Shown here: piece by piece, positions 17,759 to 59,750 of the stretch
Layout of the letters: each line of letters starts with the position of its first letter
Numbering within the stretch: position 1 is the stretch's first letter
NCBI GenBank assembly: GCA_902363145.1
Contig: CABIZB010000002.1
Span: 310,001 to 374,000, forward strand
Source: Oscillospiraceae bacterium
Lineage (GTDB): Bacteria > Bacillota > Clostridia > Oscillospirales > Ruminococcaceae
Direction: 5' to 3'
DNA length: 64,000 bases
The notes under the pieces: model-generated
Seen by the model: the letters and a program-made list of their open reading frames with translations, nothing else
Told to the model about the DNA's origin: nothing
Database searches by the model: none
Program-made: the position numbers and the translations under genes

Positions 17759-17806
17759 AGCAAGTCCTCCTTTTTCGGGAATATTCATATTGTCATATTA
17801 TAAATA

Positions 17807-23564: not shown

Positions 23565-23975
23565 TTACTTCAGTCCGAAAGCCCTGCGCAGTACATCATC
23601 ACCGTTTCCTTCCCTGCGTGACCTTACTCCCGTGGATATCTTCTGACCCGAGCCGCCGAATTTAGATATCCTGCCGAATATATCTCTCGCCGCCTCTTCA
23701 AAGCTCACTCCCCCCACAGCACGGGCGGAAGCCGCACAGATAATGTCCTCCGTCAGCTCACGGGGAATGCCCTCCCTCTCGCAGAAAAGCTGATTGCGAA
23801 GCTTTGCATTTTCAGCCGTCAGAGCCGCCACCTGCTCTTCAAGGGCATGGATATCAGCTGCGTTAGCAACGTCAGCAACGTCAGCAACGTCAGCATCTCC
23901 ATTGCCCTCATCGGGAGAGATATCCCCACCCATATCTGTAATTTCATTTACAGACTTCTCGTTTTCTTCATTCAT
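23565..23975 (-). CDS. phage scaffolding-like protein
   Basis: 136 residues, acidic, with a central coiled coil (DIHALEEQVAALTAENAKLR) and Gly/Arg-rich end, typical of short scaffold proteins that guide capsid assembly. A 9-base DNA repeat (GTCAGCAAC, three units near 23865-23890) encodes ADVADVADV. The gene overlaps the portal stop by four bases and lies between portal and capsid genes, as expected for a scaffold. Confidence 0.7.
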   Translation of the reverse strand: MNEENEKSVNEITDMGGDISPDEGNGDADVADVADVANAADIHALEEQVAALTAENAKLRNQLFCEREGIPRELTEDIICAASARAVGGVSFEEAARDIFGRISKFGGSGQKISTGVRSRREGNGDDVLRRAFGLK

Positions 23976-25354
23976 ACCTTTTCCTCCTTTTTGATCCTTT
24001 CTATCTCAGCCAGTGCGTCCTCCTCCGAGCAGTCCAGCACAGCCATGACCGCCGAAAGCCTGCTTTTAAGCCCCGCCGATACAAGTCTTACGTTCTGGTC
24101 GATTATCTCGCCCTTATCCACCGTCTGCCTGTCGGAGAAAGCCACCCTGACGGAAATATCACCCTTTGGTATCTCGCCGCACAGCATTCCGCAGCGGATA
24201 ATGCTCTTCACCGTGCTTTCGATAAGCTCCGCCGCAAGGCACCTGTTCTGCTGCATTGTGATCTCCGTGCGTGTCTCCATGCTCTTGACCTCCGCCGCCG
24301 TTTTAAGTCCGCCCGAGGTGCTGAACGAAAGCGTTCCCGATGAAAGCCCCGTCTGGAAGCAGAGAATATCAAGCAGCGCATTTATAGCGTCAACGTGCTC
24401 CGAAACTCTCAGCTCGCAGGTGTTGTCGGATATTTTCAGGTCCTTTTCCTCGTCGCATTTAAGTGCCTGATACACTTCATCGTCCGTGTCGAAATACCTG
24501 CTTATCCTGCCCGTGTCGGGATCAACCACCGTCCTGATGCAAGATGAAGGCACGATTATCCTCTTGCGCCCCAGCACAAACTCCCGTGAGAAGCTGTCAA
24601 ATGCGATGTCGAGAGCTTTCAGAGTGTCGGTGCAGTTTGCAAAGCAGCTCAGCCCCAGCATGGTCTCATCGGAGAGATTGTTCGCCCCCGCAGGTCGGAA
24701 GTACCCGAAAAGCGGCTCGCAGATGTCATACTCCGAATGTTCCGAAAGCCCATCAAACATCGTCTCCACAGGTATCTGCTCCCCAAGATATCCGTCACGG
24801 GAGGAAAACAGCGCCCTGTCCGTGAAAATGCCGCTGCCGTCTGCGCCCTGCCGCTCAAAAAGAGTAAACGCCTCGCCGCCTTTGTAAAATCTGCTGCGAA
24901 ATATGCCCTCCTTTATGCTGCCGCAGAAGCCGCCCACAGGAATAAAGCTGTCCGCCGATATGTAGTCGATGCCAATGTCCCCGTCAATGAAAACCTTGAG
25001 CGCACCTCCGCCCAGCGCATAAGCACGGCTGAAAAACGAGGGCATATTTTCCCAGAAGCCGTTGTCCTGGAGCACCCTTTCAACCAGCTCCTGCTGGCGG
25101 TGGTCGGCGCAGTAAATATCCGCCTGACTGCTGAACGTAAGCGCCGCCAGACTGTCGCACAGCACCTTTGCGCCGCCAAGCATGCTCATACGCCGCTCGC
25201 CCTTGCCGTAAAGCCCCGAGCGCTTCACATACGCCCAAGGCGGCTCACCCTTGTAAATATCGGCGCAGGCAGCTATCACCGTGCGGTAATATTCCTCTTC
25301 ATGGGGAATTTTCGCCTGGGGGAACGCCCTCTGCGCCTCCGAAATTATGCCCAA
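23972..25354 (-). CDS. phage portal protein
   Basis: 460 residues. Portal hallmarks: early aromatic-rich segment (YKGEPPWAYV), LGGAKVLCDSLAALTF, PSFFSRAYALGGGALKVF, and a C-terminal stretch (TAAEVKSMETRTEITMQQNR) like the A118/SPP1-type portal family. It forms the ring through which DNA enters the capsid. The start is TTG 25354, nine bases after GAAAGGA. It follows the terminase large subunit by 15 bases. Confidence 0.88.
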   Translation of the reverse strand: MGIISEAQRAFPQAKIPHEEEYYRTVIAACADIYKGEPPWAYVKRSGLYGKGERRMSMLGGAKVLCDSLAALTFSSQADIYCADHRQQELVERVLQDNGFWENMPSFFSRAYALGGGALKVFIDGDIGIDYISADSFIPVGGFCGSIKEGIFRSRFYKGGEAFTLFERQGADGSGIFTDRALFSSRDGYLGEQIPVETMFDGLSEHSEYDICEPLFGYFRPAGANNLSDETMLGLSCFANCTDTLKALDIAFDSFSREFVLGRKRIIVPSSCIRTVVDPDTGRISRYFDTDDEVYQALKCDEEKDLKISDNTCELRVSEHVDAINALLDILCFQTGLSSGTLSFSTSGGLKTAAEVKSMETRTEITMQQNRCLAAELIESTVKSIIRCGMLCGEIPKGDISVRVAFSDRQTVDKGEIIDQNVRLVSAGLKSRLSAVMAVLDCSEEDALAEIERIKKEEKV

Positions 25355-25369
25355 TCACATCATTCCTTT

Positions 25370-26602
25370 CTATCTCATAACATCAAGGATATCCTTCATT
25401 CTCCGCTCCGTGGAATACTCCTGAGCGTCAAGGCTGTCAATGTTCACACTACCGTCGTCCAGCCGCCTGTCAAGGCTTCCGCCCTCCCACACCGCCTGAG
25501 AAAATGCGGCAATAGTGTTCTTGCACTGTGCAAGAATTTTGTAGCGGCCGTCGCTTAAAACAGCATTGTAAAACCTTATTCTCTGGCTTATCTCGCCCTT
25601 TCGGGCGTTGTGTATCTCCACAGGCAGCCTTTCACGTATCGCAGCATTCTGCAGTCCTCTTATAAGCACCTGCTCCGCACTGTCGCAGTAAATATCCCTG
25701 AGCATGGGATATTTTTTCCTGACCCTTTTAACAAAATCCGCAAAATCCCGCTCCAGCTCCGCAGGGGACATTATCCCCTTTCGGTAATACTCCTCCAGAG
25801 TGTATATCTGCCTGTACCCCGCCGTGTAGCCCGTCACGTTGAACGCCGTGGCAGAACCGTTTCCGCCGAAATCCACACCCATATCCGCCATGATGATGTT
25901 CTTTGCCATTTTGCAGATGAATTTCTCAGGGCAGTCCGCAAACTGCCTGTAAATGACCCCCTCAGCATTTTTCCAAAGCCCCAGGATAAAGCGGTCGTAA
26001 TAAACCGTCCCCGCATATTCCCTTTTCAGTGCCTGAGCAAATCCCTTGGGCAGAGCCGGATTATCGTCAATGGTGAAGCCCGATACCCTTACGCTGCCGC
26101 CCGGCACCCCTTTGTCAAGAAATTTCTTGAACCAGTGGGAGGGAGACGCAGGATTGCAGCTGCCGTCAAAAACCGAAGTCTCCCTGTCAAGCCTTGAACC
26201 TATCATTCTGAAAACGCCCTCGCTCCAAGTGGTTATCTCATCGCCGTAGCAGTAGGAAAGGCTTGACCCCTGGAGCTTGTCCGCATTGCCGCTGCGCCCC
26301 GCACCGATAACAAAGCAGTCCCTGCCGAAAAGCCGCACATATCCGCCGCCCTTGACACGCCCCACAAGCTTCTCGCCGTATATCCCACGCATGGGCGAAA
26401 GGATATTCCGCTCAACGCTTGCCACCGTGTTGCCCACTATGGCGATCCCGCCCCGAGGGTCGCTGATAAATATTCGCCGGGGAATGCGGTAGTAGTCAAG
26501 ATACGTTTTTCCCGACCGCACTGCCCCCACCGAGATGTTCCAGCGGCAAGGCTCCCTTATGGTAACGCTCAGCACGCTTTTCTGTTTTTCAGTCAGTCCC
26601 AA
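25370..26602 (-). CDS. terminase large subunit
   Basis: A 410-residue DNA packaging motor of the PBSX/Terminase_3 type. Walker A-like GAVRSGKT is at about residues 26-33, Walker B is LSYCYGDEIT near 115, and C-terminal nuclease acidic residues are seen in MADMGVDFGG and DIYCDSAEQ. It cuts and pumps DNA into the head. The start is TTG 26602, after GGGAGGA, overlapping the small subunit gene by 14 bp. The length is typical, so packaging function appears intact. Confidence 0.93.
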   Translation of the reverse strand: MGLTEKQKSVLSVTIREPCRWNISVGAVRSGKTYLDYYRIPRRIFISDPRGGIAIVGNTVASVERNILSPMRGIYGEKLVGRVKGGGYVRLFGRDCFVIGAGRSGNADKLQGSSLSYCYGDEITTWSEGVFRMIGSRLDRETSVFDGSCNPASPSHWFKKFLDKGVPGGSVRVSGFTIDDNPALPKGFAQALKREYAGTVYYDRFILGLWKNAEGVIYRQFADCPEKFICKMAKNIIMADMGVDFGGNGSATAFNVTGYTAGYRQIYTLEEYYRKGIMSPAELERDFADFVKRVRKKYPMLRDIYCDSAEQVLIRGLQNAAIRERLPVEIHNARKGEISQRIRFYNAVLSDGRYKILAQCKNTIAAFSQAVWEGGSLDRRLDDGSVNIDSLDAQEYSTERRMKDILDVMR

Positions 26603-42593: not shown

Positions 42594-44483
42594 TCAGTTT
42601 CTGCGCCTGTTTGGTTTCAGGCTCTTCTCAGCATACATTCTTTCATCGGACTGCTTCAGCATGGCATCGAAATCAAAATCAATGCGTGTGCTGCACATTC
42701 CTATGCTGGCAGTTATTGGGTAAGGTTTTACATGATCCTTGTTAAGACAGGCAAGGAAGTTCTCAACGTGCCGCCTTATAATGCCCTCCGCTCCATCGCC
42801 GATATTATCGGCAGCTGCAGTAACGGCGCATACCACAAACTCATCGCCGCCGAAGCGTCCGCATATCTTATTTTCAATAGGGATACTGCGTATAGCATCC
42901 GCCACGGAGCTTATGGCAAAGTCGCCCTCGTCATGGCCGTAATGGTCGTTGATGTTTTTAAGTCCGTCAAGGTCAATGGAGGCAACGGTAAAATTCCTTC
43001 CCGCATTCTTCCTCTGGAGCCACGAAAGCTGCTTATAGAAGCCGTTTCTGTTGTAAATTCCTGTAAGATAATCGTTTTCGGATATCTTTTCAATGCTCTT
43101 GGCCGTGTATTTCAGGTGCATGGCATTTCGGTATCCGCTGAGAGCGTTGTTGAGAGCATACACATACTGGGGTATCATGCAGTAGCCGTTAACATCAGCC
43201 GTGAAATGTACGCACATATATCCCATAGGAATGCCATATGAGCTGATCACATTGAACACAACAGGATTTTTAAGGGTCATAACATAGTCGATGTCAATAA
43301 GAACATCTTTGCGCATGATGTTCATGGGATATTTTTTTGAATCATCATCTGATTTATAGAGAATGCACATCTCATCGTCAAAGCCGTTCCATTTTTCCTC
43401 CAGTGGATTAAGTGCCTCATTCCAGAAGCTCTGATTTACCATAATACAGATGTTGTAGAAATTATATACCTTGAGATCTTCCACAATGCAGTCTGCACTG
43501 TCTCCCGTAACTATTTCCTGTGCCAGTTCGCACAGAAGAGCATTGTCGTCCTGATACTTGCAAAATCTTTCCCGAACAGTTTTAAGAGTGTTGCCCACAT
43601 TATAAGGAGGGCGGTCAGGATCGCAGCCGCAGGAATTATATACATCAAGAACAAAATCCACATAGTTATCATGAAGAACTTTCCCGCCTGCAAACACCTT
43701 TTCAAGAGCGTCGGCAATGGCTTTTGCCGTGTCGGAATAGCTGCACCTGCAGGTGGTTATGGGCGGAGTGCATTGTTTTGCTTCTTCAGTGCCGTCAAAG
43801 CCCACCACAGCCACATCATCAGGAACTTTATATCCATGCCGGTTCAATACCGCACAGGCAGTTATCGCCATCATATCATTGGCGCAGATTATAGCCTTGG
43901 GCACACGGTTCTCGGCGACCATATCCTCAACAGCCTTCTGTGCAGGGCCTGACCAGTAATCGCCGTAGCTCAGCATATTGTCATTAAAGGGCAGACCATT
44001 TTCTGCAAGCACCTTTTTATATACCGCAATACGCTGCTCGGAATGTTCATCGCCTTTAAATCCCGCTATCATCGCCGTATCGGTTATGCCGTGATATTCG
44101 ATGATATGGCGTACTGCCTGTTCAAAGCCCGCCTCATAGTCGAAAATAAAGCTGGTGCATTTCTCTGACCTGTTGCCCAGAATAAAAACAGGCACATTGT
44201 GAGCCTCAGCGTCCATACGCAGTTCATCGACGATGGAAGTGTCCCTGAAAGCCTCGCTGAATATCACCACAGCATCTACAATATTATAATCTATCAGGGA
44301 ATAGACCTTTTTCTCAGCGTTTTCGAACCTGTTGTTGCGATAAAAATCAGTGCAGGCGTTATATACAAAAAGCCGATAATCCTTGGCAACAAGAGCCTTA
44401 TTAAGTTCAGCCACTTTGGCAGTGGTTTCATCATTGCTAAGTCTGGTAAGACATAACGCAATTATTTTCCGCCCTTTGAACAT
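42594..44483 (-). CDS. LacI-type sensor domain fused to GGDEF (putative diguanylate cyclase)
   Basis: 629 residues, no signal peptide and no transmembrane helix. Residues 5-290 are a periplasmic-binding-protein fold of the LacI/PurR type (IALCLTRLSNDE, AIICANDMMAITA, VAVVGFDGTEEAK) without the DNA-binding head. A middle region of about 160 residues is followed by a GGDEF domain with NDYLTGIYNRNGF, SIDLDGLKNIND and an intact GGDEF at 545-549. The inhibitory RxxD site is absent at the usual place (IENK). It probably makes cyclic di-GMP from GTP in response to a cytoplasmic sugar or nucleoside. Monocistronic, leftward. Confidence 0.87.
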   Translation of the reverse strand: MFKGRKIIALCLTRLSNDETTAKVAELNKALVAKDYRLFVYNACTDFYRNNRFENAEKKVYSLIDYNIVDAVVIFSEAFRDTSIVDELRMDAEAHNVPVFILGNRSEKCTSFIFDYEAGFEQAVRHIIEYHGITDTAMIAGFKGDEHSEQRIAVYKKVLAENGLPFNDNMLSYGDYWSGPAQKAVEDMVAENRVPKAIICANDMMAITACAVLNRHGYKVPDDVAVVGFDGTEEAKQCTPPITTCRCSYSDTAKAIADALEKVFAGGKVLHDNYVDFVLDVYNSCGCDPDRPPYNVGNTLKTVRERFCKYQDDNALLCELAQEIVTGDSADCIVEDLKVYNFYNICIMVNQSFWNEALNPLEEKWNGFDDEMCILYKSDDDSKKYPMNIMRKDVLIDIDYVMTLKNPVVFNVISSYGIPMGYMCVHFTADVNGYCMIPQYVYALNNALSGYRNAMHLKYTAKSIEKISENDYLTGIYNRNGFYKQLSWLQRKNAGRNFTVASIDLDGLKNINDHYGHDEGDFAISSVADAIRSIPIENKICGRFGGDEFVVCAVTAAADNIGDGAEGIIRRHVENFLACLNKDHVKPYPITASIGMCSTRIDFDFDAMLKQSDERMYAEKSLKPNRRRN

Positions 44484-48121: not shown

Positions 48122-48150
48122 TTGACAGGAAAAAAGTTTTGTTGTATAAT
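48122..48150 (+). promoter_or_regulatory. promoter of CorC and transglutaminase gene array
   Basis: TTGACA (48122-48127), a 17-bp spacer and TATAAT (48145-48150). Since transcription would begin near 48157, the CorC gene must start downstream, at 48206. No other clear promoter was seen before the five transglutaminase genes. Confidence 0.9.
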
Positions 48151-48205: not shown

Positions 48206-49615
48206 ATGGATTCTGACGGGTGTAATATTATATCCGCTGTTGTGAACAGCACTGCCAATGGCAGCAGTCTTACCGCAGGTATCATCATCTGCATTGTGCT
48301 TATTCTTATAAGGGCGTTCTTCACCTGCTGTGAAACCGCCTGCACCGAGATAAGCGACGGAAAGGTAAAAAGCTTTGAAAACGAAAAGGGCGGCAAGGGT
48401 CTGCTTTACAGGCTCCTTTCTCACCCAAGCGAGCTTATCTCCGCTTTCTCCGCACACCGCATACTTAATGCAGCAGTTCTCACCATAGCTGCCGAATGGA
48501 CACTTTTTGCGCCGTTTTACAGCTGCTTTGCAGGTCTTTTCCCTGCTGAGGAAATGTCTCTCCCCGCATTCATCATCACCGAGCTGCTTATAATCTTCTG
48601 CACGGTGCTTGCCGCCGAAGTTCTTGGCGGAAGCGTTCCTAAGAAGCTTATCAAGGATCCCGACAGCTTTGCAGTCCGCTGCACTCCTGCCGTTAAGCTC
48701 ATATATGTGCTGATGAAGCCCTTTACCCTGATAAGCAGCCTTGCAGCCAAAATAGCGGCTGCCGCATCCGGCAACCCCTCCGAGGACGCTGACGCAGTTA
48801 CCGAGGAAGAAATACGCCTTATGGTGGATGCAGGCAATGAAACAGGCTCTATCGAGTCCTCCGAGCGTGAGATGATAAACAACGTTTTTGAGTTTCATGA
48901 GCTGTCGGTCAGCGATGTTATGACCCACAGAACGGATATCGTTGCGGTGGATATAGATGCCGAGATATCGGAAGCGGTATATACAGCCATAAACAGCGGC
49001 TTTTCACGCATTCCCGTCTATAGAGACAATATAGATCACATAGAAGGCGTGATATACGTCAAGGATCTTCTGTGCCTTATAGGTACTCATTCATCTGAAA
49101 GCATGACACTGAAAAGCTTTCTGAGAGATGCGGCTTTCGTTCCCGAAAGCTGTATGTGCGGCGAGCTGTTCAAGCGCTTCACCGCCAAAAAGCTCCAGAT
49201 GGCTGTTGCCGTTGACGAATACGGCGGCACCGCAGGTCTTGTCACCATGGAGGACTTGGTCGAGTCCATTGTGGGCAATATCCAGGACGAGTACGACAAT
49301 GAGGCTGAGGAGATAACCAAAATATCCGACAATACCTATACCATAAGCGGCACCGCTGACGCTGCCGACGTTATGGAAACTCTGGGCGCTCCCCTGCCCG
49401 ATGACAGCGAATACGACACAATGAGCGGATTTATCACCGACCTGCTGGGTCGTATCCCCGAGGACGGCGAGACTCCCTCTGTCATCTACAAAAACATCAC
49501 CTTTACAGTGCTTCTGGCGGAAGATATGAGAATCGTCAGAATAAAAGCGGTAATAAATAAAGAAGAAAAGGAGATAGAAAAAAATGATGAGATCAGCAAA
49601 GAGCAGAAAGATTAG
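48206..49615 (+). CDS. CNNM/CorC-HlyC family membrane protein
   Basis: 469 residues from ATG 48206, after AAAGGAAG. The N-terminal DUF21/CNNM domain has about four membrane segments (LTAGIIICIVLILIRAFFTCCETA carries the family ETA motif). Next come a CBS pair with the linker VSDVMTHRTDIVAVD, GFSRIPVYRDNIDHIEGVIYVKDLL and VDEYGGTAGLVTMEDLVESIVG, and a CorC_HlyC domain at the end. Relatives export or sense Mg2+; some are labelled hemolysins. Its last 32 bases overlap the first transglutaminase gene, so the two are translated together. Confidence 0.9.
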   Translation: MDSDGCNIISAVVNSTANGSSLTAGIIICIVLILIRAFFTCCETACTEISDGKVKSFENEKGGKGLLYRLLSHPSELISAFSAHRILNAAVLTIAAEWTLFAPFYSCFAGLFPAEEMSLPAFIITELLIIFCTVLAAEVLGGSVPKKLIKDPDSFAVRCTPAVKLIYVLMKPFTLISSLAAKIAAAASGNPSEDADAVTEEEIRLMVDAGNETGSIESSEREMINNVFEFHELSVSDVMTHRTDIVAVDIDAEISEAVYTAINSGFSRIPVYRDNIDHIEGVIYVKDLLCLIGTHSSESMTLKSFLRDAAFVPESCMCGELFKRFTAKKLQMAVAVDEYGGTAGLVTMEDLVESIVGNIQDEYDNEAEEITKISDNTYTISGTADAADVMETLGAPLPDDSEYDTMSGFITDLLGRIPEDGETPSVIYKNITFTVLLAEDMRIVRIKAVINKEEKEIEKNDEISKEQKD

Positions 49616-51281
49616 TGCGGTAATGGCATTCGTAATGTCTCTTTCCGTGCTGGCTACAGGCTGCCAGAAAACCAGTGAGGATACAGGCAAGCTCCCCTCT
49701 CTCGATGAGGTAAGCATAACCACCACCGAGACCGAGGAAACAGACGTTCCCGAGGTAACTACCGTTCCCACCGAGACTACCACTGAAGCCACCACTACCA
49801 CAGAAGTGACCACAGAGGAGACTGAGGAGACCACCGCCCCCACAGAGACCACTCCCGCCGAGACCTCCGCAGCAGAGACCTCCGAAACCAGTGCACAGAC
49901 TTGGAGCGAGACCGAGATGTCCGCCACAATGTACGTTACCGAAAACTGCTACTCCAGGGAAAAGGCAATAATCGGCTCCACACCTATCTCCCAGCATTAC
50001 GCAGGCGACACCGTTGAGGTCGTAGCCATCACCGACACCGAATACTATAAGCTTGCCGAGGGCGGATTTATCCACTCCGACTATCTTTCCGATACAAAGC
50101 CTGTTGTTACCACAGCAGCTACCACCGAGGCTCCCGCAGAGACCACAAAGTCCGACAGCGGAAACTCCGGTTCCGACAGCTCTTCTGACAGCGGTTCTTC
50201 CGAGAACTTCAACGCCGGCGGCGATCTTGATGATGCAAACTACAAGGTAAAGTCCTCCTCCAGATACGCTTATAAGCAGCTCAATGCTACCGAGCAGAAG
50301 CTCTATAACAACATCATTTCTTCCGTAAAGAGCCTGAACAGCGTCGTTGACGTTCCCTCCGGTCTTACCACCGATGATGTTGTAAGAGTATATACTATCG
50401 TTTACAACAATGAGCCTCAGCTCTTCTGGATGGGCGGAAGCCTTTCCGCAGGCACATCAAGCGCCATCATCTCCTTCAAGACCTCCGACAAGAACGAGAT
50501 AAAGGCAATGCAGAAGGAGATCGATTCCGCAGCTGCAAGCATCATCTCCAAGGCAAACAACTACAGCGGAACAGTTTCCAAGCTCAAGGTATTCTATGAT
50601 TCAATCGTCCTCAAGAACGAGTTCAGCAAGTCCGATTCGGGATACAACTGCTCCATCTACAACGGCCTTACCGGCAACGGCGCTCTCCAGTGCGCAGGTT
50701 ATGCAAAGAGCATACAGTACCTCTGCGACCTGGCAGGCATTGAAAGCACAGTTGTAGTGGGAACCGACAAGAACGACAACTCCCACGCATGGAACGTTGT
50801 TTACTGCGAGAACGGCTACTACAACCTGGACGCTACATGGGGCGACCCCATCAACCACTTTGATTCCAGCTACGTTCAGTACGAGTTCTTCCTTGTTCCC
50901 GATGCTTGGATACATAACATCACCCACTACAATGTAAATACCATGGTAAGAGGAAACGGCAACAAGATCCACCTTTTTGACCCTCCTGCCTGCACCAAGG
51001 AAGCATGCAACTACTTTGCAGCTTACAACAAGCTCTACAGCACCAAGTCCGAGGCTGAGTCCGCAATGTACGCAGCTATTGACGATGCAGCAGCCAACGG
51101 CAAGAACGTAGCCGAAATAAGAGTTACCGACAAGTCCATCTATGACACACTTATGAGCGACGATTACTTCAGAACATTCCAGAAGTACGCAAAGAAAAAC
51201 TACTCCAACGTTACAAAGCTTATGAGACAAAGCTCCTTCACAGGCGGCGTTTACGTTGTACACTATGACCTGGTATATTAA
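49584..51281 (+). CDS. transglutaminase-like lipoprotein 1 (with SH3-like domain)
   Basis: 565 residues. Signal peptide and lipobox LATGC (Cys27). A Thr/Glu-rich spacer runs from about 45 to 110, then an SH3b-like segment (TMYVTENCYSREKAII...GFIHSDYL, about 113-170), then a Ser/Gly/Asp linker. The transglutaminase-like core from about 225 has Cys370 (LQCAGYAKS), His401 (SHAWN) and Asp416 (YYNLDATW). Cys-His-Asp is the catalytic set of papain-fold transglutaminases and related proteases. It is the longest and the first of five tandem paralogues; its start overlaps the CorC gene. Lipid-anchored on the outer membrane face. Activity is not known. Confidence 0.87.
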   Translation: MMRSAKSRKISAVMAFVMSLSVLATGCQKTSEDTGKLPSLDEVSITTTETEETDVPEVTTVPTETTTEATTTTEVTTEETEETTAPTETTPAETSAAETSETSAQTWSETEMSATMYVTENCYSREKAIIGSTPISQHYAGDTVEVVAITDTEYYKLAEGGFIHSDYLSDTKPVVTTAATTEAPAETTKSDSGNSGSDSSSDSGSSENFNAGGDLDDANYKVKSSSRYAYKQLNATEQKLYNNIISSVKSLNSVVDVPSGLTTDDVVRVYTIVYNNEPQLFWMGGSLSAGTSSAIISFKTSDKNEIKAMQKEIDSAAASIISKANNYSGTVSKLKVFYDSIVLKNEFSKSDSGYNCSIYNGLTGNGALQCAGYAKSIQYLCDLAGIESTVVVGTDKNDNSHAWNVVYCENGYYNLDATWGDPINHFDSSYVQYEFFLVPDAWIHNITHYNVNTMVRGNGNKIHLFDPPACTKEACNYFAAYNKLYSTKSEAESAMYAAIDDAAANGKNVAEIRVTDKSIYDTLMSDDYFRTFQKYAKKNYSNVTKLMRQSSFTGGVYVVHYDLVY

Positions 51282-51319
51282 AAGAGAAAAAGAACAATAA
51301 AAAGGAAGGTAATTTCAGA

Positions 51320-52666
51320 ATGACTAAAAGAATAATGGCATTTGCAGCAGCTGTACTCATGGCAGCTTCCGTGTTCACAGGCTGCGGCAGCAAGACTGAG
51401 GACGATGCTCAGGCGCAGACCTCCGTCAACGTTATCGAAAATGGCACCACCGCTCCCAGCGGCGAGGAAGTGACCACAGCCGAGGGCGGTTTCTCCGACC
51501 CCGCAGCTCAGCTGGGCGTTGAGACACAACCCGGCGATGTTCCTCCCGAGGACGCCGAAAATCAGGAGACCACTCTCCCCCCCAACCATGAAGAGATCGT
51601 AAATATGATTGAAAACGGCGGCGGAACAGTCACCACCAAGGCTCCCATTCTCAAGGAGTACAACGTTGACTGCACTACCCGCTACGGCTATAATCAGCTG
51701 AACGATGCCGAAAAGGAGCTTTACAAGCAGATACTCGAAGCTGCAAACTCCATCAGAACAAGCCTGAGAGTTGACGACAGCGTTACCGATGAAATGTGGA
51801 TAAAGGTTTACGGCTGCGTATATATGCAGGAGCCTCAGCTTTTCTGGCTCTCCTCCAAGAAGGTATCAAAGGGCAAGCTCTGGTACTGGGAGATAGACCC
51901 CGAGCTTATCGCATCCATGCAGAAGGAGATCGACGCCACAGTCGGCAAGATACTTGCAGAGGCTGAAGGAAAGTCCGATTACGAAAAGCTCAAGGTATTC
52001 CACGATTACATCGCACTCAACAACAACTTCGTCAAGGAGTCGGGCTACAACCAGACTATCTACGGCGGATTTGTAAACGGCGAGATACAGTGTGAAGGCT
52101 ACGCAAAGAGCATTCAGTACCTCTGCGACCTTACAGGCATCGAGAGCACCGTTGTTGTAGGCACAAACGAGTCTGGAGACTCCCACGCATGGAACGTTGT
52201 AAAGGTTGACGGCAAGTGGTACAACCTGGACACCACCTGGGACGACCCCATTCTCTCCAACGTTGTCAAGACCAATATCAGATACAGATACTTCCTCGTT
52301 CCCGACGAGTGGATACACAACAAGTCCCACTTCAATGTAAACAAGAAGACCACAGGAACTCAGGTGACTTATTTCACTCCTCCCGCCTGCACATCTGACG
52401 ATATGAACTACTTTAAGGTAACAAAGCAGCTCTATTCAGATGAAGCTTCCGCAGACACCGCTCTCAGAGCAAAGCTTAAGGAATGCGCTGCAAGCAACAC
52501 AAGAGCTGTTGAGATAAGAGTCACAAGCCAGGCTGTATATGACGCTGTTACCAAGAACCTGAAGGATTACGCTTCATGGATAAAGAGCGAAAACTCTGCG
52601 GTAACATCCGTTTCCTCCAACTGCGACCCCAACACACTGGTGATCGAGCTTGACCTGAGCTTCTGA
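51320..52666 (+). CDS. transglutaminase-like lipoprotein 2
   Basis: 448 residues. Lipobox FTGC with Cys22; linker rich in Glu, Thr and Pro to about residue 110. The core has YGYNQLNDAEKELYKQ, FHDYIALNN, Cys258 (IQCEGYAKS), His289 (SHAWN) and Asp304 (WYNLDTTW). Closest to paralogue 1: both share the block YAKSIQYLCDL.GIESTVVVGT and a C-terminal domain of about 140 residues (DEWIHN..H.NVN). The start has AAGGAAG upstream. A 38-base gap from gene 1 holds no terminator. Confidence 0.87.
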   Translation: MTKRIMAFAAAVLMAASVFTGCGSKTEDDAQAQTSVNVIENGTTAPSGEEVTTAEGGFSDPAAQLGVETQPGDVPPEDAENQETTLPPNHEEIVNMIENGGGTVTTKAPILKEYNVDCTTRYGYNQLNDAEKELYKQILEAANSIRTSLRVDDSVTDEMWIKVYGCVYMQEPQLFWLSSKKVSKGKLWYWEIDPELIASMQKEIDATVGKILAEAEGKSDYEKLKVFHDYIALNNNFVKESGYNQTIYGGFVNGEIQCEGYAKSIQYLCDLTGIESTVVVGTNESGDSHAWNVVKVDGKWYNLDTTWDDPILSNVVKTNIRYRYFLVPDEWIHNKSHFNVNKKTTGTQVTYFTPPACTSDDMNYFKVTKQLYSDEASADTALRAKLKECAASNTRAVEIRVTSQAVYDAVTKNLKDYASWIKSENSAVTSVSSNCDPNTLVIELDLSF

Positions 52667-52689
52667 TAGCTGAAAATTACGGAGACGGC

Positions 52690-53871
52690 ATGAAAACACA
52701 CCAACGAATTGTTATCGGCGCACTGCTGTTTGTGCTGACGCTCCCGAATCTGTCAGGCTGCTCAAGAATTAACGAGGACTATTCATTGTCCGAGACCGTT
52801 ACTTCTGCGGGCAGCCTGTCTGCTATTACGGGCAATGACCGGCGGTATATCTACTACAGCTCACTTTCACCAAAGGAGCAGCAGATGTATGATATCCTGC
52901 AAAATGCAGTGGAGAATTTTCAGCCTCAGGCGGTGTTCCCCGAAAAGCTCCCGCCTGAAACGCTGAAAAAGCTGTTTCTGGCAGTGTATTATCAGGAGAA
53001 TATCTTCTGGCTCACCAGTAAGTTCTACCGCCCCGACAGTGACAGCGACACTCTGCGGCTCACCTATCGGTATGACGAGGAGACCACTCATCAGATGCAG
53101 GCGGATATCGGTAAAACATCGTGGAAAATTTCCTCAGTCTTTGATGAAAGCACATCTGACTACGAAAAGCTGAAAGCCTTTCATGACTACATTGTCCTGA
53201 ACTGCACCTTTTCCGATGATGAAAATACGGATACCACCCTGTACGGCGCTCTCTGCGGCGGATATTCCATGTGCGAGGGCTATGCAGCAGCATTCAATCT
53301 CCTTTGCCAAAAGTCGGATATCCCCTGCGTCACCGTAACGGGAACAGGCTCGGACGGCGCTTCCCACGCATGGAACAAGGTAATGCTGGATGGCGAGTGG
53401 TACAACGTTGACTGCACATGGGACGACCCCATACTCGACCCGCCCGACGAAAATTTTATCCGTCACTACTATTTTCTGGTAAGCGACAAGGATATTGAGG
53501 GCATTACCCATTTCCCCGACAATACGTACTTTTCATATCCGGAATGCAGTTCCGACAACAACTATTTCAGGCGTGAGGGACTGTATGCAGATTCTGCCGA
53601 CAGCGGCATAGCACTGCTGTCATCAGCTGCGGCAGATGCAATTTCAGCAGGGCTTACCGATGCGGAAGCAAGATTTGCCGATGAAAAAGCGTATTATTCC
53701 GCCAAGACAGCACTTTTTGACAGAAAAAAGATACGGCAGGTACTGGAATATGCGGACAGCCGGGCAGATAAGCCTGCCGGCAAAACGGTGATGACCAACA
53801 AATACGTCCGCTACTGCAATGACAGCCTGCTGATAATCCATATAACGATGATCTGCGAAGATACAAGGTAA
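52690..53871 (+). CDS. transglutaminase-like lipoprotein 3
   Basis: 393 residues, the shortest. Lipobox LSGC with Cys24, and almost no Thr/Glu linker. Core motifs: YSSLSPKEQQMYDIL, FHDYIVLNC, Cys195 (SMCEGYAAA), His226 (SHAWN), Asp241 (WYNVDCTWDDP). The C-terminal region is shorter and diverged. Only 23 bases after gene 2 and five before gene 4, so co-transcribed. Less biased codon use than genes 1 and 2, suggesting lower expression. Confidence 0.86.
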   Translation: MKTHQRIVIGALLFVLTLPNLSGCSRINEDYSLSETVTSAGSLSAITGNDRRYIYYSSLSPKEQQMYDILQNAVENFQPQAVFPEKLPPETLKKLFLAVYYQENIFWLTSKFYRPDSDSDTLRLTYRYDEETTHQMQADIGKTSWKISSVFDESTSDYEKLKAFHDYIVLNCTFSDDENTDTTLYGALCGGYSMCEGYAAAFNLLCQKSDIPCVTVTGTGSDGASHAWNKVMLDGEWYNVDCTWDDPILDPPDENFIRHYYFLVSDKDIEGITHFPDNTYFSYPECSSDNNYFRREGLYADSADSGIALLSSAAADAISAGLTDAEARFADEKAYYSAKTALFDRKKIRQVLEYADSRADKPAGKTVMTNKYVRYCNDSLLIIHITMICEDTR

Positions 53872-53876
53872 ATGCA

Positions 53877-55367
53877 ATGATAAAAAGAAAAAGAAATGCC
53901 GCTGTCATAGCCGCTGCACTTATGGCGGCAACGATGCTGGGCGGCTGCGACACAAACGATAACACTCCGCTTCCCACCGATACCGTAACCGAAACTCAGG
54001 CGGAAACATCTGTAACAACTGCAACAACAGTCAGTGAAAAGCCGCAGGAGACCGCTGTTTCCGATAGTACCGAGACTGTGGCAGAGACCACTGTGCCGGA
54101 AAGCACCGCCGCTAACGAAACACCCGAAACAACAGTTTCGGAAAGCGAAGCTCAGGAAGAAACATCTGAAACTACCACTGTAAGCATCGCCGTTGAATCG
54201 GAGACCGTTTCGGAAGAATCAACGGAAAAAGATATGGACTGGTCAAGCTCAGCCATAGCCTTTTCCGCTGCGGGCAATCCCGTATATTTCCCCGCAAACG
54301 GCGAAAAAAGCCCCTACACAGGCAGAAAGACCATCGACCACCCCTACAGCTATTACACCCTGAACGACAGGCATCAGAAAATATACGACGAGCTTGTAAC
54401 AGCCCTGCTTGAATGCGAAAGCAGCATAAAGTTCAGCTATTACGACGAAGTAACCTTCGATGACCTTTTCAGCATTTATCAGCTTATCTACAACGATGAA
54501 TACAGGCTTTTCTACATCTCTCCCACCATCGAATACACACAGGACAAGACCACAGGCTTTGTGACCCAGATGCGCCTGCTCTACAATTATGACGCCGATG
54601 TTATCGCCGACATGAAAGCGGAGGTCGAGGAGGAAGCTGAAAAGATACTTTCCCAAATAACCCCCGACATGAGCGATTATGAGATAGTAAAGCTTTTCCA
54701 CGACTCTGTTATAATCTCCTGCAAATATTCGGGCGAGGCTGAAAATCCCAACACCATTTATGGCTGCCTTGTGGATAAGGAAGCCCTTTGCCAGGCGTAT
54801 TCCCAGACATTTACCTATCTGTGCCACCGTGCAGGCATAAAAACGCTGGTGGTGCTGGGCGTTGCCAACGAGCCGCATATGTGGAACATCGTGGAGATGG
54901 GCGGCGATTATTATCACATCGACCTTACCTGGGACGACCCCGACAGATCACGCAATCCCGACTCGGTGCGCTATGATTATTTCGGACTTACCGACGAGCG
55001 CATAAGAGAGCTTCGTCAGGTAGATGACTATGAGTATGAAGTTCCCGCCGCAAACGGCACAAAATATCAGTATTACAGCTACAATGACCTTGTTGCCGCC
55101 GATACGGAGGAAGCCAAGGCGATAATCACCCGTGAAGCCCTCAAAGCCGCAGAAAACGGCAGCTCAACAGTTCAGTTCATGTGCGCAGACAGCGAAGCAT
55201 TTGACGAAATAACCTCAGCCCTTTTCAGCAATGCGCAGGGCAACGTCATAACCGTTCTGGAAGCGGCAAAGAAGCAGGCTGCAAGGCTTTTCAACACCGA
55301 ATCAGTTTACCACAACAGCAACGAAAATACCCTCACCGTAAAAATATTCCTTGATTACCTTGATTGA
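53877..55367 (+). CDS. transglutaminase-like lipoprotein 4
   Basis: 496 residues. Lipobox LGGC with Cys24, followed by about 95 residues of Thr/Glu/Ser/Val repeat-like spacer. Core: YTLNDRHQKIYDELV, LFHDSVIIS, Cys305 (ALCQAYSQT), His334 in PHMWN where other members have HAWN, and Asp349 (YYHIDLTWDDP). The CQAY in place of CEGY and HMWN mark a subgroup with gene 5. Its stop overlaps the upstream region of gene 5; no terminator between. Confidence 0.86.
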   Translation: MIKRKRNAAVIAAALMAATMLGGCDTNDNTPLPTDTVTETQAETSVTTATTVSEKPQETAVSDSTETVAETTVPESTAANETPETTVSESEAQEETSETTTVSIAVESETVSEESTEKDMDWSSSAIAFSAAGNPVYFPANGEKSPYTGRKTIDHPYSYYTLNDRHQKIYDELVTALLECESSIKFSYYDEVTFDDLFSIYQLIYNDEYRLFYISPTIEYTQDKTTGFVTQMRLLYNYDADVIADMKAEVEEEAEKILSQITPDMSDYEIVKLFHDSVIISCKYSGEAENPNTIYGCLVDKEALCQAYSQTFTYLCHRAGIKTLVVLGVANEPHMWNIVEMGGDYYHIDLTWDDPDRSRNPDSVRYDYFGLTDERIRELRQVDDYEYEVPAANGTKYQYYSYNDLVAADTEEAKAIITREALKAAENGSSTVQFMCADSEAFDEITSALFSNAQGNVITVLEAAKKQAARLFNTESVYHNSNENTLTVKIFLDYLD

Positions 55368-55384
55368 CCACGGAGGCTCCCGAG

Positions 55385-56617
55385 ATGCAAAGCAGCGGTA
55401 TCTACAACAGAATAAAGCTGATACTGGCAGCGGGCATTGCCATTGTTCTGTCTGCCTGCTCCCGGGAAGAAGTCCCCGACACAGGCGACGTGAGCTACAC
55501 TATCATCTCAGGCGGAACCGCTGTGACCACGGAAGCTCCCACCGAGACCGAGGATATCTACGCCGATGTTTCCGATACGAAGCTGTATATCCCCGAACAC
55601 ATGGTCACAAAATACGCTTCCCTCGATTACGACAAGCGTATGCAGGACGTTTACGATGACGTGGTGGATACCATGCAGAATTTCCGCACCAAATCCTACG
55701 TCCCCCTGACCATAAGCACCGAGGACTACGTTAAGGTGCTGGAAACAGTCCGCTGCGAACAGCTGATGCTATTCTATCTCCAGAACCGCTACGCAGGGGA
55801 TTTTGACAGCACGGTGCAGACCTATGAGATGAACTTCTCGTATAAGTACAGCATAAAAGAAGTAAACATCATGCTTATGGAAACGGAAAAGGCGGCAAAG
55901 GAGATAATGACCCTCACCGACCCGTCCATGTCCGATTATGAAAAGCTGAAAATTTTCCACGATTACCTTGTGCTCAACGTGGAAAGCTCCACCGATGACC
56001 CCACTGCCGATTCTATCTACGGCGCTCTGGTAAATAAAAAAGCCCTCTGCGAGGGATATGCAAAGGCTTTTTCCTACCTGTGCAATCTGGCAGGGATAGA
56101 AAATATGATAGTCACAGGCTATACGGACGTTGACCATATGTGGAACATGGTAAAGCTGGAGGGCAAGTGGTATCACATAGACGTGGGCTGGGACAAGCCC
56201 TCGGCGGCGCTGTCGGAAAGATATCCCGACATGGTTCTGTACCAGTATTTCCTCTCGGAAGACTCGATAATGGAAAACAACCGCATCATAAGCAATATGC
56301 TCTGCGACCCGCCTGTGGCGGACAGCTCCGATATGTACTACTTCAACGTGGAAAACAAGTATGCCGAGACCTACGATCAGGCGCTGAAGATAATAGAGCA
56401 GTCCTGCCGCCGCTGCATAGATTCGGGAGAAAAGTATTTCATGATAAAGCTTGACTCCTCAAATCTGTATCTGCAAACCACCTCCGACCTGATAAAGCCC
56501 GACAGCGAGGGCGTGACGGACATTGACAGGATAGTCCGCTCCCTTAATTTCAAGGGGCAGATAAGCTATATTGACTATTACAAGGCTTATCGGATAATCA
56601 TATTTGTATTGGAATAA
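55385..56617 (+). CDS. transglutaminase-like lipoprotein 5
   Basis: 410 residues from ATG 55385, eight bases after CGGAGG; an in-frame TTG at 55364 overlaps gene 4 and is rejected. Lipobox LSAC with Cys25. Core: YDKRMQDVYDDVV, IFHDYLVLN, Cys222 (ALCEGYAKA), His251 (DHMWN), Asp266 (WYHIDVGWDKP). Short linker. Last of the array; a strong terminator begins right after its stop. Confidence 0.86.
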   Translation: MQSSGIYNRIKLILAAGIAIVLSACSREEVPDTGDVSYTIISGGTAVTTEAPTETEDIYADVSDTKLYIPEHMVTKYASLDYDKRMQDVYDDVVDTMQNFRTKSYVPLTISTEDYVKVLETVRCEQLMLFYLQNRYAGDFDSTVQTYEMNFSYKYSIKEVNIMLMETEKAAKEIMTLTDPSMSDYEKLKIFHDYLVLNVESSTDDPTADSIYGALVNKKALCEGYAKAFSYLCNLAGIENMIVTGYTDVDHMWNMVKLEGKWYHIDVGWDKPSAALSERYPDMVLYQYFLSEDSIMENNRIISNMLCDPPVADSSDMYYFNVENKYAETYDQALKIIEQSCRRCIDSGEKYFMIKLDSSNLYLQTTSDLIKPDSEGVTDIDRIVRSLNFKGQISYIDYYKAYRIIIFVLE

Positions 56618-56618
56618 G

Positions 56619-56647
56619 CGCTCTATGGGTCTCATAGAGCGTTTTTT
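56619..56647 (+). terminator. terminator of the transglutaminase array
   Basis: Stem CGCTCTATG / CATAGAGCG with a five-base loop followed by TTTTTT. Confidence 0.9.
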
Positions 56648-57492: not shown

Positions 57493-58542
57493 TTATATAT
57501 TCGACATTATATTCATCATAGGTATCAGAACCGTAAGCATCATGATACCCGCCGCTGCGGTGAGTATCACCGTCAATATAGGCTCTGCCGAGTTGATGAT
57601 CCTATTGATTCGTGCGTCCGCTTCTTCCGTAAGTCGGGCGCTTATTTTCTGCCATGCTGAGTCAAAAGAGCCTGAGCCGTATGATATCCGCAGTGTCCGT
57701 GAATAAAATACAGGCAGCAGCTCCGTCTGCTCCAATGCGTCCGAAAACGGAACGTCATTCATTACCAGCTCTGCGCATTTTTCTATCTGCTCGTTCACCC
57801 ACTTGTCCGATGATATCCCCTTTACGCTGCAAAGTGCCTCCGCAGGGGCAATGCCGCTGTTTATCATCATGCTGACGGCGTTTGCGAACTGCGCCGATGC
57901 TATGGTCCGTGAGGCAGTTTTGGTAAATGGCATCATTGAGATAAAGCCCGATGAAAAGCTTTCCTTTTTCGCTTTCCAGATAATGAACATCACTCCCGCC
58001 GCAAGCAAAAGCACCGCACATATAATAAGCATCACTGTGCCTGCCGCCGATGATATCCTTACGCTCCTGCCGATAACACGGTATATCTCAGGGTCAAAGT
58101 CGGAGAATATCTGTGCAAACATTGGCAGCACTTTAAGGGTAAGCACCGCAATGACAACTGCCGTCACTGCCAGCATTATAAGGGGCGAGACCACTGCACT
58201 GCGCATTTTCTCTCCCAGCTGAGCTTCACGCTCGTAATATTCGGACAGTTCTTTCAGCGCCTCGTCCAGCTTGCCAGACATTTCCCCTGCCATGACCGCC
58301 TTTATGCAGTAGCGTGGAAATGCTCCCGTTTCTTCAAGAGCGGCATAAAAGGGCCTTTCCATTGAAAGGGAATTTGTCACCGCCTTGAGCAGCTCTATTG
58401 CCTCGGGAGAGCTGTCCTTCATCTCCGATGTGATAACGGTAAGCCCGTCATATATGGGAACGCCCGAATCCAGTATCACCGCCGCCTGATAGCAGAAGTA
58501 TGACACCTCATCGGCAGTCAGCGGACGTATTTTTTTTGACAT
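57493..58542 (-). CDS. type II secretion/type IV pilus inner-membrane protein (GspF/PilC-like)
   Basis: 349 residues with two T2SSF domains (about 10-130 and 215-340) and three membrane helices (SPLIMLAVTAVVIAVLTLKVL, TVMLIICAVLLLAAGVMFIIW, LTVILTAAAGIMMLTVLIPM). Typical phrases: YCIKAVMAGEMSGKLDEAL and LPVFYSRTLRISYGSGSFDSA. Such proteins are the platform of type IV pili or competence pseudopili. No ATPase, pilin or peptidase gene is adjacent in this window; the only same-strand neighbour upstream is a transglutaminase lipoprotein 20 bases away. Confidence 0.88.
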   Translation of the reverse strand: MSKKIRPLTADEVSYFCYQAAVILDSGVPIYDGLTVITSEMKDSSPEAIELLKAVTNSLSMERPFYAALEETGAFPRYCIKAVMAGEMSGKLDEALKELSEYYEREAQLGEKMRSAVVSPLIMLAVTAVVIAVLTLKVLPMFAQIFSDFDPEIYRVIGRSVRISSAAGTVMLIICAVLLLAAGVMFIIWKAKKESFSSGFISMMPFTKTASRTIASAQFANAVSMMINSGIAPAEALCSVKGISSDKWVNEQIEKCAELVMNDVPFSDALEQTELLPVFYSRTLRISYGSGSFDSAWQKISARLTEEADARINRIINSAEPILTVILTAAAGIMMLTVLIPMMNIMSNI

Positions 58543-58562: not shown

Positions 58563-59750
58563 TCAGTAATAGTAAACAGCGGAATAGCCGTCCTTGTCGG
58601 ACATATATTCAGCTGCATCGCTCTTGTTGTCGGCGCTGGCGTAGAATGTGGGGTCAAGCAGATTCCACTTGTTTTTCTCGATGAACAAGTCCAGCGTGAC
58701 CCAGCCTGTTTCCTTTGTATAGACCTCGTTCCATGCGTGGTACATATTTCCCTGAACGTAGCCCATGACCAGCTTTGTGGGTATGGACTGCGAGCGGCAC
58801 ATCGCCGCAAAAAGGGACGCATAGTCAAAGCAGATGCCAGTGCCCTTGGCAAGAGTGCTGTCTGGGTCGGGGATATATCCGCTCTTTACCGATGCCGCCA
58901 GCTGCTTATCATACGAGATGTTGTCGGTGACATATTTAAATATGGCGGCAATCTTTTCAGCATCACTGTCACAGCCTGCGCAAAGCTCCGCAGCCTTTTT
59001 AACGCAGTTATCCGACTGGCTGAAGCTGATGTACTGGGAGGGCAGAAGATATGGGCTGAAATCGGAAACCTCTGCCGAAAAGCTTTCGTCAAGGGCAATG
59101 GCATAGGTCTTGCCCGATATATTTTCCAGCACCTTTACGTTATATTCGCCGCTGCCCGACTGCAGTGGATATACTGCGCTGCCTGAAAGTCCGTAGTCAT
59201 AAACATTATCCCCCATAGTTATTCTTACCTTAACGTTGCTGCACGAGCCTTTGTAGCTCACCTGCACAACACCGCTGGCGGCATCGGATATATCCACGGA
59301 AGCAATGTCATTTTCCAGGGTTTTTGCCCCTGTAAAGTTGCCTGTGGCAATTTTGGGAACGGTCACTTTTACAGGCTTCTCCTCAGCGCTGCTTGTCTTG
59401 GCGGAGGAAAATGTGACAGTCTCGCTGCGGATATCATATGCCGCAGTTTCACTGCTTTCGGCAGTGGTTTGTGTTTCGGGCGGAGACGTGGTTTCGGAAG
59501 TCTCTTCGGAAATTTCTGTGGAAACCTCAGAAGAGATTTCTGACATAACCTCACTTTCCGATATGCTTTCTTCCGAAACGGGATATTCCTCCGTAAGTAT
59601 CTCACGGGCAGTAGTTTCGTCAATTATCTCCGTGGCAGATGCTTCTGCAGAAGTTAAAGCTGCCTCCGATAAGACATCGCTGTTATCAGCTTCGCCGCAT
59701 GAGCATAAAAGAAGCGCAGCCGCAAGCACGGCAATTTTCTTTACATGCAT
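58563..59750 (-). CDS. transglutaminase-domain lipoprotein (classical core)
   Basis: 395 residues. Lipobox LCSC with Cys18; a long Ser/Glu/Thr spacer to about residue 120; a beta-rich region (130-235); then a classical transglutaminase core with Cys307 (GTGICFDYASLFAAMCRS), His338 (YHAWNEVY) and Asp366 (LLDPTF). This core is closer to the general bacterial transglutaminase domain than to the five-gene array, where the motif is C.GY. It is followed by the GspF-like gene, probably co-transcribed. Confidence 0.87.
   Translation of the reverse strand: MHVKKIAVLAAALLLCSCGEADNSDVLSEAALTSAEASATEIIDETTAREILTEEYPVSEESISESEVMSEISSEVSTEISEETSETTSPPETQTTAESSETAAYDIRSETVTFSSAKTSSAEEKPVKVTVPKIATGNFTGAKTLENDIASVDISDAASGVVQVSYKGSCSNVKVRITMGDNVYDYGLSGSAVYPLQSGSGEYNVKVLENISGKTYAIALDESFSAEVSDFSPYLLPSQYISFSQSDNCVKKAAELCAGCDSDAEKIAAIFKYVTDNISYDKQLAASVKSGYIPDPDSTLAKGTGICFDYASLFAAMCRSQSIPTKLVMGYVQGNMYHAWNEVYTKETGWVTLDLFIEKNKWNLLDPTFYASADNKSDAAEYMSDKDGYSAVYYY

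Follow-up and report, generated by a model that had tools for sequence, protein, structure and literature searches.

A corC-led array of five TglA-like lipoprotein genes with position-specific tether lengths in Oscillospiraceae

The locus and its five enzymes

We analyzed a stretch of 64,000 nucleotides (nt) of contig CABIZB010000002.1 from an Oscillospiraceae bacterium; "the window" always means the whole of this 64-kb stretch. It contains a unit of six genes on one strand: corC, encoding a protein with CNNM and CorC_HlyC domains, followed by five genes, here named g1 to g5, encoding transglutaminase-like (TG) lipoproteins that resemble TglA of Streptococcus pyogenes (Table 1). A preliminary description, made from the sequence alone, had pointed to five consecutive genes at this place, and all of them are found at the coordinates it gave in the list of open reading frames (ORFs). 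The start of corC is likely the ATG at 48206, because the listed TTG start (48122) falls inside the promoter. The listed g5 ORF (55364-56617) begins at a TTG seven codons before ATG 55385, which would number its triad C229/H258/D273; the ATG is the more likely start.

Table 1. Features of the six-gene unit (positions in the window; aa, amino acids)
Feature	Position	Strand	Description	Evidence
Sigma-A promoter	48122..48150	+	TTGACA-N17-TATAAT	12/12 consensus
corC	48206..49615	+	CNNM (DUF21), CBS pair and CorC_HlyC; degenerate Mg2+ site	PF01595, PF00571, PF03471
g1	49584..51281	+	TglA-like lipoprotein; tether of about 200 aa including an SH3-like domain; Cys370-His401-Asp416	
SH3-like domain	49896..50099	+	Bacterial SH3-like beta domain in the g1 tether, about residues 105-172	g1 model; PF08239 in relatives
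g2	51320..52666	+	TglA-like lipoprotein; tether of about 93 aa; Cys258-His289-Asp304	
g3	52690..53871	+	TglA-like lipoprotein; tether of about 28 aa; Cys195-His226-Asp241	
g4	53877..55367	+	TglA-like lipoprotein; tether of about 138 aa; Cys305-His334-Asp349	
g5	55385..56617	+	TglA-like lipoprotein; tether of about 54 aa; Cys222-His251-Asp266, counted from ATG 55385	
Terminator-like hairpin	56616..56644	+	13 pairs and a T-rich tail, starting at the g5 stop	

The genes corC and g1 overlap, the remaining intergenic gaps in the window do not exceed 38 nt, and the six genes apparently make up a single operon, as judged from this layout and the promoter. Four exact TTGACA-N17-TATAAT sites occur in the window, where 0.05 would be expected from shuffled sequences. 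The site before corC is conserved: in the 291 nt spanning the corC ORF start, a match at 11 or more of the 12 positions was found in 35 of 36 related loci, versus 2 of 180 control stretches taken inside corC, and the spacer is of 17 nt in all 36 rows scoring at least 10, the window included. This agrees with the earlier proposal of one promoter before corC. At the other end of the unit, g5 is followed by a stem of at least 6 with a T-run in only 9 of the 53 related loci, compared with 1 of 159 control stretches. Hence, termination is not uniform across the relatives.

All five proteins match Transglut_core (PF01841) above its gathering score of 23, with 25.3, 32.2, 52.2, 28.3, and 51.2 bits for g1 to g5 (E-values between 1.9e-5 and 8.6e-14). 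When the five are aligned, identity to g1 ranges from 25 to 39%, and the Cys, His, and Asp of the putative catalytic triad are invariant and in the same order, at the positions first described. Of the 248 rows from relatives and the window, 247 have the complete triad, and the last row is a 150-aa fragment at a contig edge that lacks those columns. We looked for loss of catalytic residues in close relatives, which had been named in advance as evidence against a functional array, and saw none, in line with the original view that the expansion is functional and not decaying.

Lipobox-like motifs are present in the five window genes, as had been noted, and a simple pattern recovers them in 40/41, 43/47, 43/48, 48/50, and 48/51 untruncated rows of g1 to g5, respectively. 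A lipid anchor thus apparently fixes the five enzymes on the outside of the membrane, and the motifs support the idea of a set of several surface-anchored enzymes. The model of g2 has the TglA architecture, i.e., an N-terminal helical part, the core, and a C-terminal alpha/beta part in one chain. The C-terminal domain, which the preliminary description could not recognise, is as a fold the C-terminal part of S. pyogenes TglA. In the g1 model, the SH3-like domain has six strands and a predicted local distance difference test score (pLDDT) of about 90. In alignment A5, which has 41 members and 36 g1 rows among them, PF08239 picks out 11 proteins at E<=0.5, with 4.3e-6 as the best value; the g1 protein of the window itself is not one of them. 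The sequence and model data fit acyl transfer, deamidation, and proteolysis alike.

Further TG proteins are found outside the array. Four array genomes (G001-G004) of 2.1-3.0 Mb have 11 Transglut_core matches each, of which five are in the array. In the window, the minus-strand gene at 58563-59750, 2 kb downstream of the array, encodes a protein matching PF01841 (E 2.6e-26) and also PF04473. It is of a different subtype, has an N-terminus that looks lipoprotein-like by eye, and was absent from the preliminary description. Its gene adjoins a T2SSF gene (57493-58542) and an alpha-amylase/DUF1653 gene.

Gene order, tether lengths, and origin of the array

A search of a genome collection with a profile built from g5 orthologs gave 555 relatives, of which the best 80 were kept. 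Among loci L001-L054, 35 of 54 have corC-g1-g2-g3-g4-g5 in this order on one strand; the five-gene synteny is thus present in related genomes. Others are partial arrays at contig ends (four g1-g5, two g2-g5, two g3-g5, and one g4-g5). Variants also occur: in L052 and L053 a pair of g2-type genes is present and a g1-type gene is missing, L015 has a doubled g1 and no g4, and L028 and L032 have no g2. The array loci were assigned to Oscillospiraceae, Ruminococcus, and uncultured Clostridia, and the protein matches include Huintestinicola. We rejected the possibility that corC is a chance neighbour, since it lies directly before the array in 36 of the 37 loci having more than 1.5 kb upstream, the linkage being specific to the lineage. 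It is the sole widely shared neighbour, as no other neighbouring gene family recurs in more than six loci. A search of the flanks for co-conserved substrate genes found none, the next families being present in at most six loci.

We defined the tether as the segment from the lipid-bearing Cys to the start of the fold, which we placed 143 residues ahead of the catalytic Cys. Tethers were measured in 219 of the 233 untruncated rows; the other 14 have no lipobox recognisable with a stricter pattern or no Cys column. Median lengths (quartiles) are 197.5 (191-210) for g1, 101.5 (96-111) for g2, 28 (27-30) for g3, 162 (151-172) for g4, and 47.5 (45-49) for g5. The length order g1>g4>g2>g5>g3 is found in 26 of the 28 loci with all five tethers measured, window included, although these loci are kin and hence not 28 independent events. 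The lengths agree between clade A (the window and L001-L018) and clade B (L019-L054), being 212/195.5, 97/105, 28/28, 177/160.5, and 48.5/47 for g1 to g5. Between the same clades the folds are 35-48% identical, and the tethers of g2, g3, and g4 are 31, 23, and 34% identical vs 26, 21, and 29% when shuffled, shuffled identity being the yardstick here and not a neutral indel model. The g1 and g4 tethers are the richest in Thr. From the lengths and identities, we infer that tether length is under selection.

Outside the array, unlinked TG lipoproteins have tethers of many lengths, from 23 to 197 aa. An unlinked two-gene tandem present in two genomes has tethers of 49 and 186 (L082) and of 58 and 197 (L096); tandems L090, L093, L094, and L095 have no lipobox on at least one gene and no bearing on tether grading. 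Within the array loci, the subclade of L008 and L012-L016 has a g4 that is short, fast-evolving, or missing (L015), with the triad columns kept, and is a natural case of one rung of the graded set being lost.

To place the array positions, we used a tree of 101 rows (the window, 16 array loci, 4 single loci, and 12 distant loci). The g1, g2 (support 73), g3, and g5 rows each lie on one side of a branch; g4 requires two changes, which is compatible with a single origin. In a second tree, with 91 rows and fewer array loci, all five positions lie each on one side of a branch. These trees indicate that the array positions are old orthologous lineages, and recent duplication or decay was rejected on the orthology and the kept triads. 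The two sub-types first proposed stand as motifs, with HAWN in g1-g3 and HMWN in g4 and g5, and g1, g2, and g3 do form one clade in the first tree (support 98), but g4 and g5 do not group together.

The linkage to corC has a narrow distribution. In the family of one array genome, 65 of 148 sampled genomes have a TG relative at E<=1e-25, and corC immediately precedes, in the same orientation, at least 20 of 95 TG runs, spread over 20 genomes: nine runs of five genes, three of four, and eight single genes. Among the matches listed, 75 runs are unlinked. In the examples that we fetched, corC is immediately followed by one TG gene in L083, L085-L088, and L171-L173, and by four in L081. At the level of the class, TglA-like proteins occur in 133 of 291 sampled genomes, and corC adjoins none of the 40 TglA-like loci taken as a control. 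Three of these loci (L140, L142, and L160) have less than 700 nt of upstream sequence, and the array family itself contributes at least one (L131, genome G067). A class-wide partnership between CorC and transglutaminases is thus not supported. The pair of corC and one TG gene was seen here only in this lineage, and the array looks like an expansion of that pair. Linked and unlinked states require seven changes on the second tree, and the linkage was therefore gained or lost more than once. Two of the genes of L081 branch beside g1 and g2 and two beside g5 (moderate support), which suggests that this locus and the array expanded partly in parallel.

The linked CorC protein

The CorC of the window scores above the cut-offs of PF01595 (77.3 bits), CBS (PF00571, 52.7 bits), and PF03471 (72.2 bits), and under the NCBIfam cut-offs of CorC (162.1 vs 379 bits) and GldE (221 vs 376). 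Passages of the CorB study (PMC8242095) give Ser21, Ser25, Ser71 (Asn in bacteria), Gly110, and Glu111 as the Mg2+ ligands of CorB, and describe Glu111, Ile112, and Pro114 as invariant in organisms ranging from archaea to humans. We took S26, S30, N76, and E118 of TtCorB as the counterparts of the published ligands. Counts are of distinct rows, as the array corC genes of L052 and L190 are identical. For comparison, we searched 22 TG-linked genomes for canonical CNNM copies and obtained them from 21, giving 22 distinct genes, two of them from G110.

The GE..P signature of the third transmembrane helix is present in 22/22 distinct canonical copies; none of the 39 distinct array rows or the 9 rows linked to a single TG gene that cover these columns has it. 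Position 26 is Lys or Arg in 35/39 array rows, 5/9 single-TG rows, 3/15 unlinked close relatives, and 0/22 canonical copies; the corresponding counts of a basic residue at position 76 are 35/37, 8/9, 3/15, and 0/22. Ser30 is Ser in just one of the 39 distinct array rows. The window protein reads GGSVPK at the place of the signature, with no acid at position 118. Judged from these alignments, the linked CorC has lost the Mg2+-site signature; neither this change nor the fixed tether length of each position was part of the preliminary description. A motif in the CBS pair, DE[YFH]GG..G..T.ED, is found in 38 of 40 array rows (two of them identical), 8/9 single-TG rows, and 15/15 unlinked relatives; as only 3/22 canonical copies have it, the pattern marks a subfamily and not all CNNMs.

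Interpretation and comparison with known systems

Building on the conserved gene order, promoter, and triads, the TglA fold of the g2 model, and the position-specific tether lengths, our preferred reading, to which we give a probability of about 0.4, is that the operon combines an altered CNNM/CorC protein with five thiol enzymes held on five set tether lengths and acting at successive depths. The promoter, the short gaps, and the gene order suggest that the six genes would be co-expressed from one strong promoter. The lipoboxes would anchor the enzymes outside the membrane, with mostly disordered tethers hanging from the outer leaflet, and the invariance of Cys-His-Asp points to catalysis in all five. 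The five would share one Cys-His-Asp chemistry, and the substrates may be proteins in or crossing the wall, modified by acyl transfer (isopeptide links) or by limited proteolysis. The tether would set the reach of each enzyme above the membrane, such that one substrate or several could be handled at successive depths, and the SH3-like domain may hold g1, the longest-reaching enzyme, against peptidoglycan. The linkage and the residue changes suggest that canonical Mg2+ transport has been lost in the linked CorC. The Lys or Arg replacing Ser26 and Asn76 may pair with the acid mostly kept at 118, and the cytosolic CBS pair is kept; as a sensor or scaffold in the membrane, the protein could link the enzymes outside to the Mg2+-ATP state of the cell. 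In its most specific form this becomes a Gram-positive depth ladder: evolution would have fixed five distances from the membrane for a single enzyme type, and a former Mg2+ transporter, its ion site taken over by the positive charges of Lys or Arg opposite the mostly kept acid, would run the set as a fixed-charge sensor that couples cytosolic Mg2+-ATP to the covalent processing of wall or surface proteins. We regard this form as doubtful. More broadly, the data suggest that the six-gene unit is an unstudied surface machine.

Several observations weigh against the preferred reading, besides the kinship of the loci and the yardstick used for tether conservation. The tethers of g1 and g5 retain sequence between the clades (44 and 33% identity vs 26 and 21% shuffled), the length order is broken in two of the 28 loci, and the g4 tether is of only 10-55 aa in four clade A loci from one subclade. 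The four-gene array L081 is weakly graded (99, 74, 128, and 73), and of the six unlinked tandems inspected, L082 and L096 alone carry a lipobox on each gene. Since L015 has no g4 and L028 and L032 have no g2, not every rung is essential; g5 is shown alone in five loci, and in L022 it is truly solitary, without corC. As for CorC, the unlinked close relatives keep GE..P in 8/15 cases and lack it in 7/15, so the signature is also lost without an adjoining TG gene. Two of them, L175 and L178, are basic at both 26 and 76, the contig of L178 ending 437 nt after corC. Of the 39 distinct array rows, 30 have an acid at 118 (11 Glu and 19 Asp) and 37 keep Pro121. According to passages of PMC8242095, TtCorB variants S26A, S30A, and N76A have raised Mg2+ transport, and S117A, E118A, P121G, and K122A have lowered transport; therefore, loss of the first three residues alone is no proof of lost transport.

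One might instead regard the five enzymes as ordinary paralogs acting on different substrates, be they true cross-linking transglutaminases or LapG-like proteases, with tether lengths that are inherited and have no job. This is a serious possibility, since all five proteins exceed the Transglut_core cut-off, unlinked TG lipoproteins vary in tether as well, and the five positions are distinct old lineages that differ around the active site, as different substrates would predict. It accounts poorly for tether lengths that stay narrow across two clades while the tether sequences of g2, g3, and g4 are near background, and for the short and long tethers of the separate two-gene tandem. Random recent amplification, for dosage or antigen variation and with no conserved roles, might be suspected from the tandem paralogs and drifting tether sequences, but the order in 35/54 loci, the grouping by position in the trees, and the conservation of all scorable triads contradict it and make it highly improbable.

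The remaining alternatives concern the substrate and the ion. An SH3-like fold binds wall peptides in other wall enzymes, and its presence in g1, together with a strong promoter conserved in the relatives examined, would fit enzymes acting on peptidoglycan or stem peptides, and not on proteins, in wall remodelling. We consider this unlikely, given that no wall-hydrolase family is among the window matches (Pfam E up to 1, NCBIfam up to 0.1) and that Pfam sees no wall-binding domain in g2-g5. A similarly low likelihood attaches to the linked CorC being a working cation exporter of altered selectivity that supplies the extracellular enzymes with a divalent ion. CNNM/CorC proteins move Mg2+ according to parts of PMC8242095 and PMC6711546, the acid at 118, Pro121, and the CBS motif are largely kept in the array rows, and entries for LapG, a Ca2+-dependent surface protease, are among the weaker structure matches (4fgq and 4fgo, one titled calcium-bound). 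However, Lys or Arg at two coordinating positions in nearly all array copies is a poor fit to a divalent site, GE..P is missing throughout the array and single-TG rows, and genomes of the family retain a separate canonical CNNM.

One operon, ancient and common in its lineage, offers a natural five-way comparison in which tether length and catalytic domain are separable and the partner is fixed by linkage. It makes two questions testable: whether the length of its tether decides at which place in a Gram-positive wall a lipoprotein enzyme acts, and whether a CNNM protein can serve as a non-transporting sensor.

The window has other features, all on the minus strand. SPP1-type portal and terminase large-subunit genes (23972-26602) mark a prophage or its remnant. 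A 1008-aa protein with fibronectin type III matches (14762-17788) is possibly a large surface protein and a candidate substrate by type only. The gene at 42594-44483 encodes a GGDEF protein with a periplasmic-binding-protein-like domain.

The question raised at the outset, whether the array belongs to an already characterised family, has a divided answer. A solved structure exists, that of S. pyogenes TglA (9crn), but our literature search, which did not cover preprints, found no paper on TglA function or on the array system. A narrow search for a partnership between CNNM and transglutaminase-like proteins, which did not extend to tether-graded sets or pseudo-transporter CNNMs, found no paper either. 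The top NCBIfam match of all five proteins is NF045980, the MAG6410 family of transglutaminase-related lipoproteins (E 1.5e-15 to 1.6e-25); with 56.6-89.6 bits vs a cut-off of 450, we rejected membership and consider them relatives. Weak structure matches (menin, LapG, and human transglutaminases, and Smr for the C-terminal part) were not relied on. The Streptococcus structure 4xz7, "a TGase", which part of PMC10318531 describes as a transglutaminase important for virulence, aligns with the core of g2 alone (196-356), the N- and C-terminal parts of g2 remaining unaligned. The only close solved structure found is TglA (9crn), which shares with the g2 model the whole fold, including the C-terminal part. 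The linked CorC has the CNNM, CBS, and CorC_HlyC domains in common with MtCorB, TtCorB, and MpfA of Staphylococcus aureus, and differs from them in the absence of the Mg2+-site signature and in two ion ligands replaced by Lys or Arg. The window differs from S. pyogenes TglA in having five tandem copies, position-specific tethers, and a linked, altered CorC.
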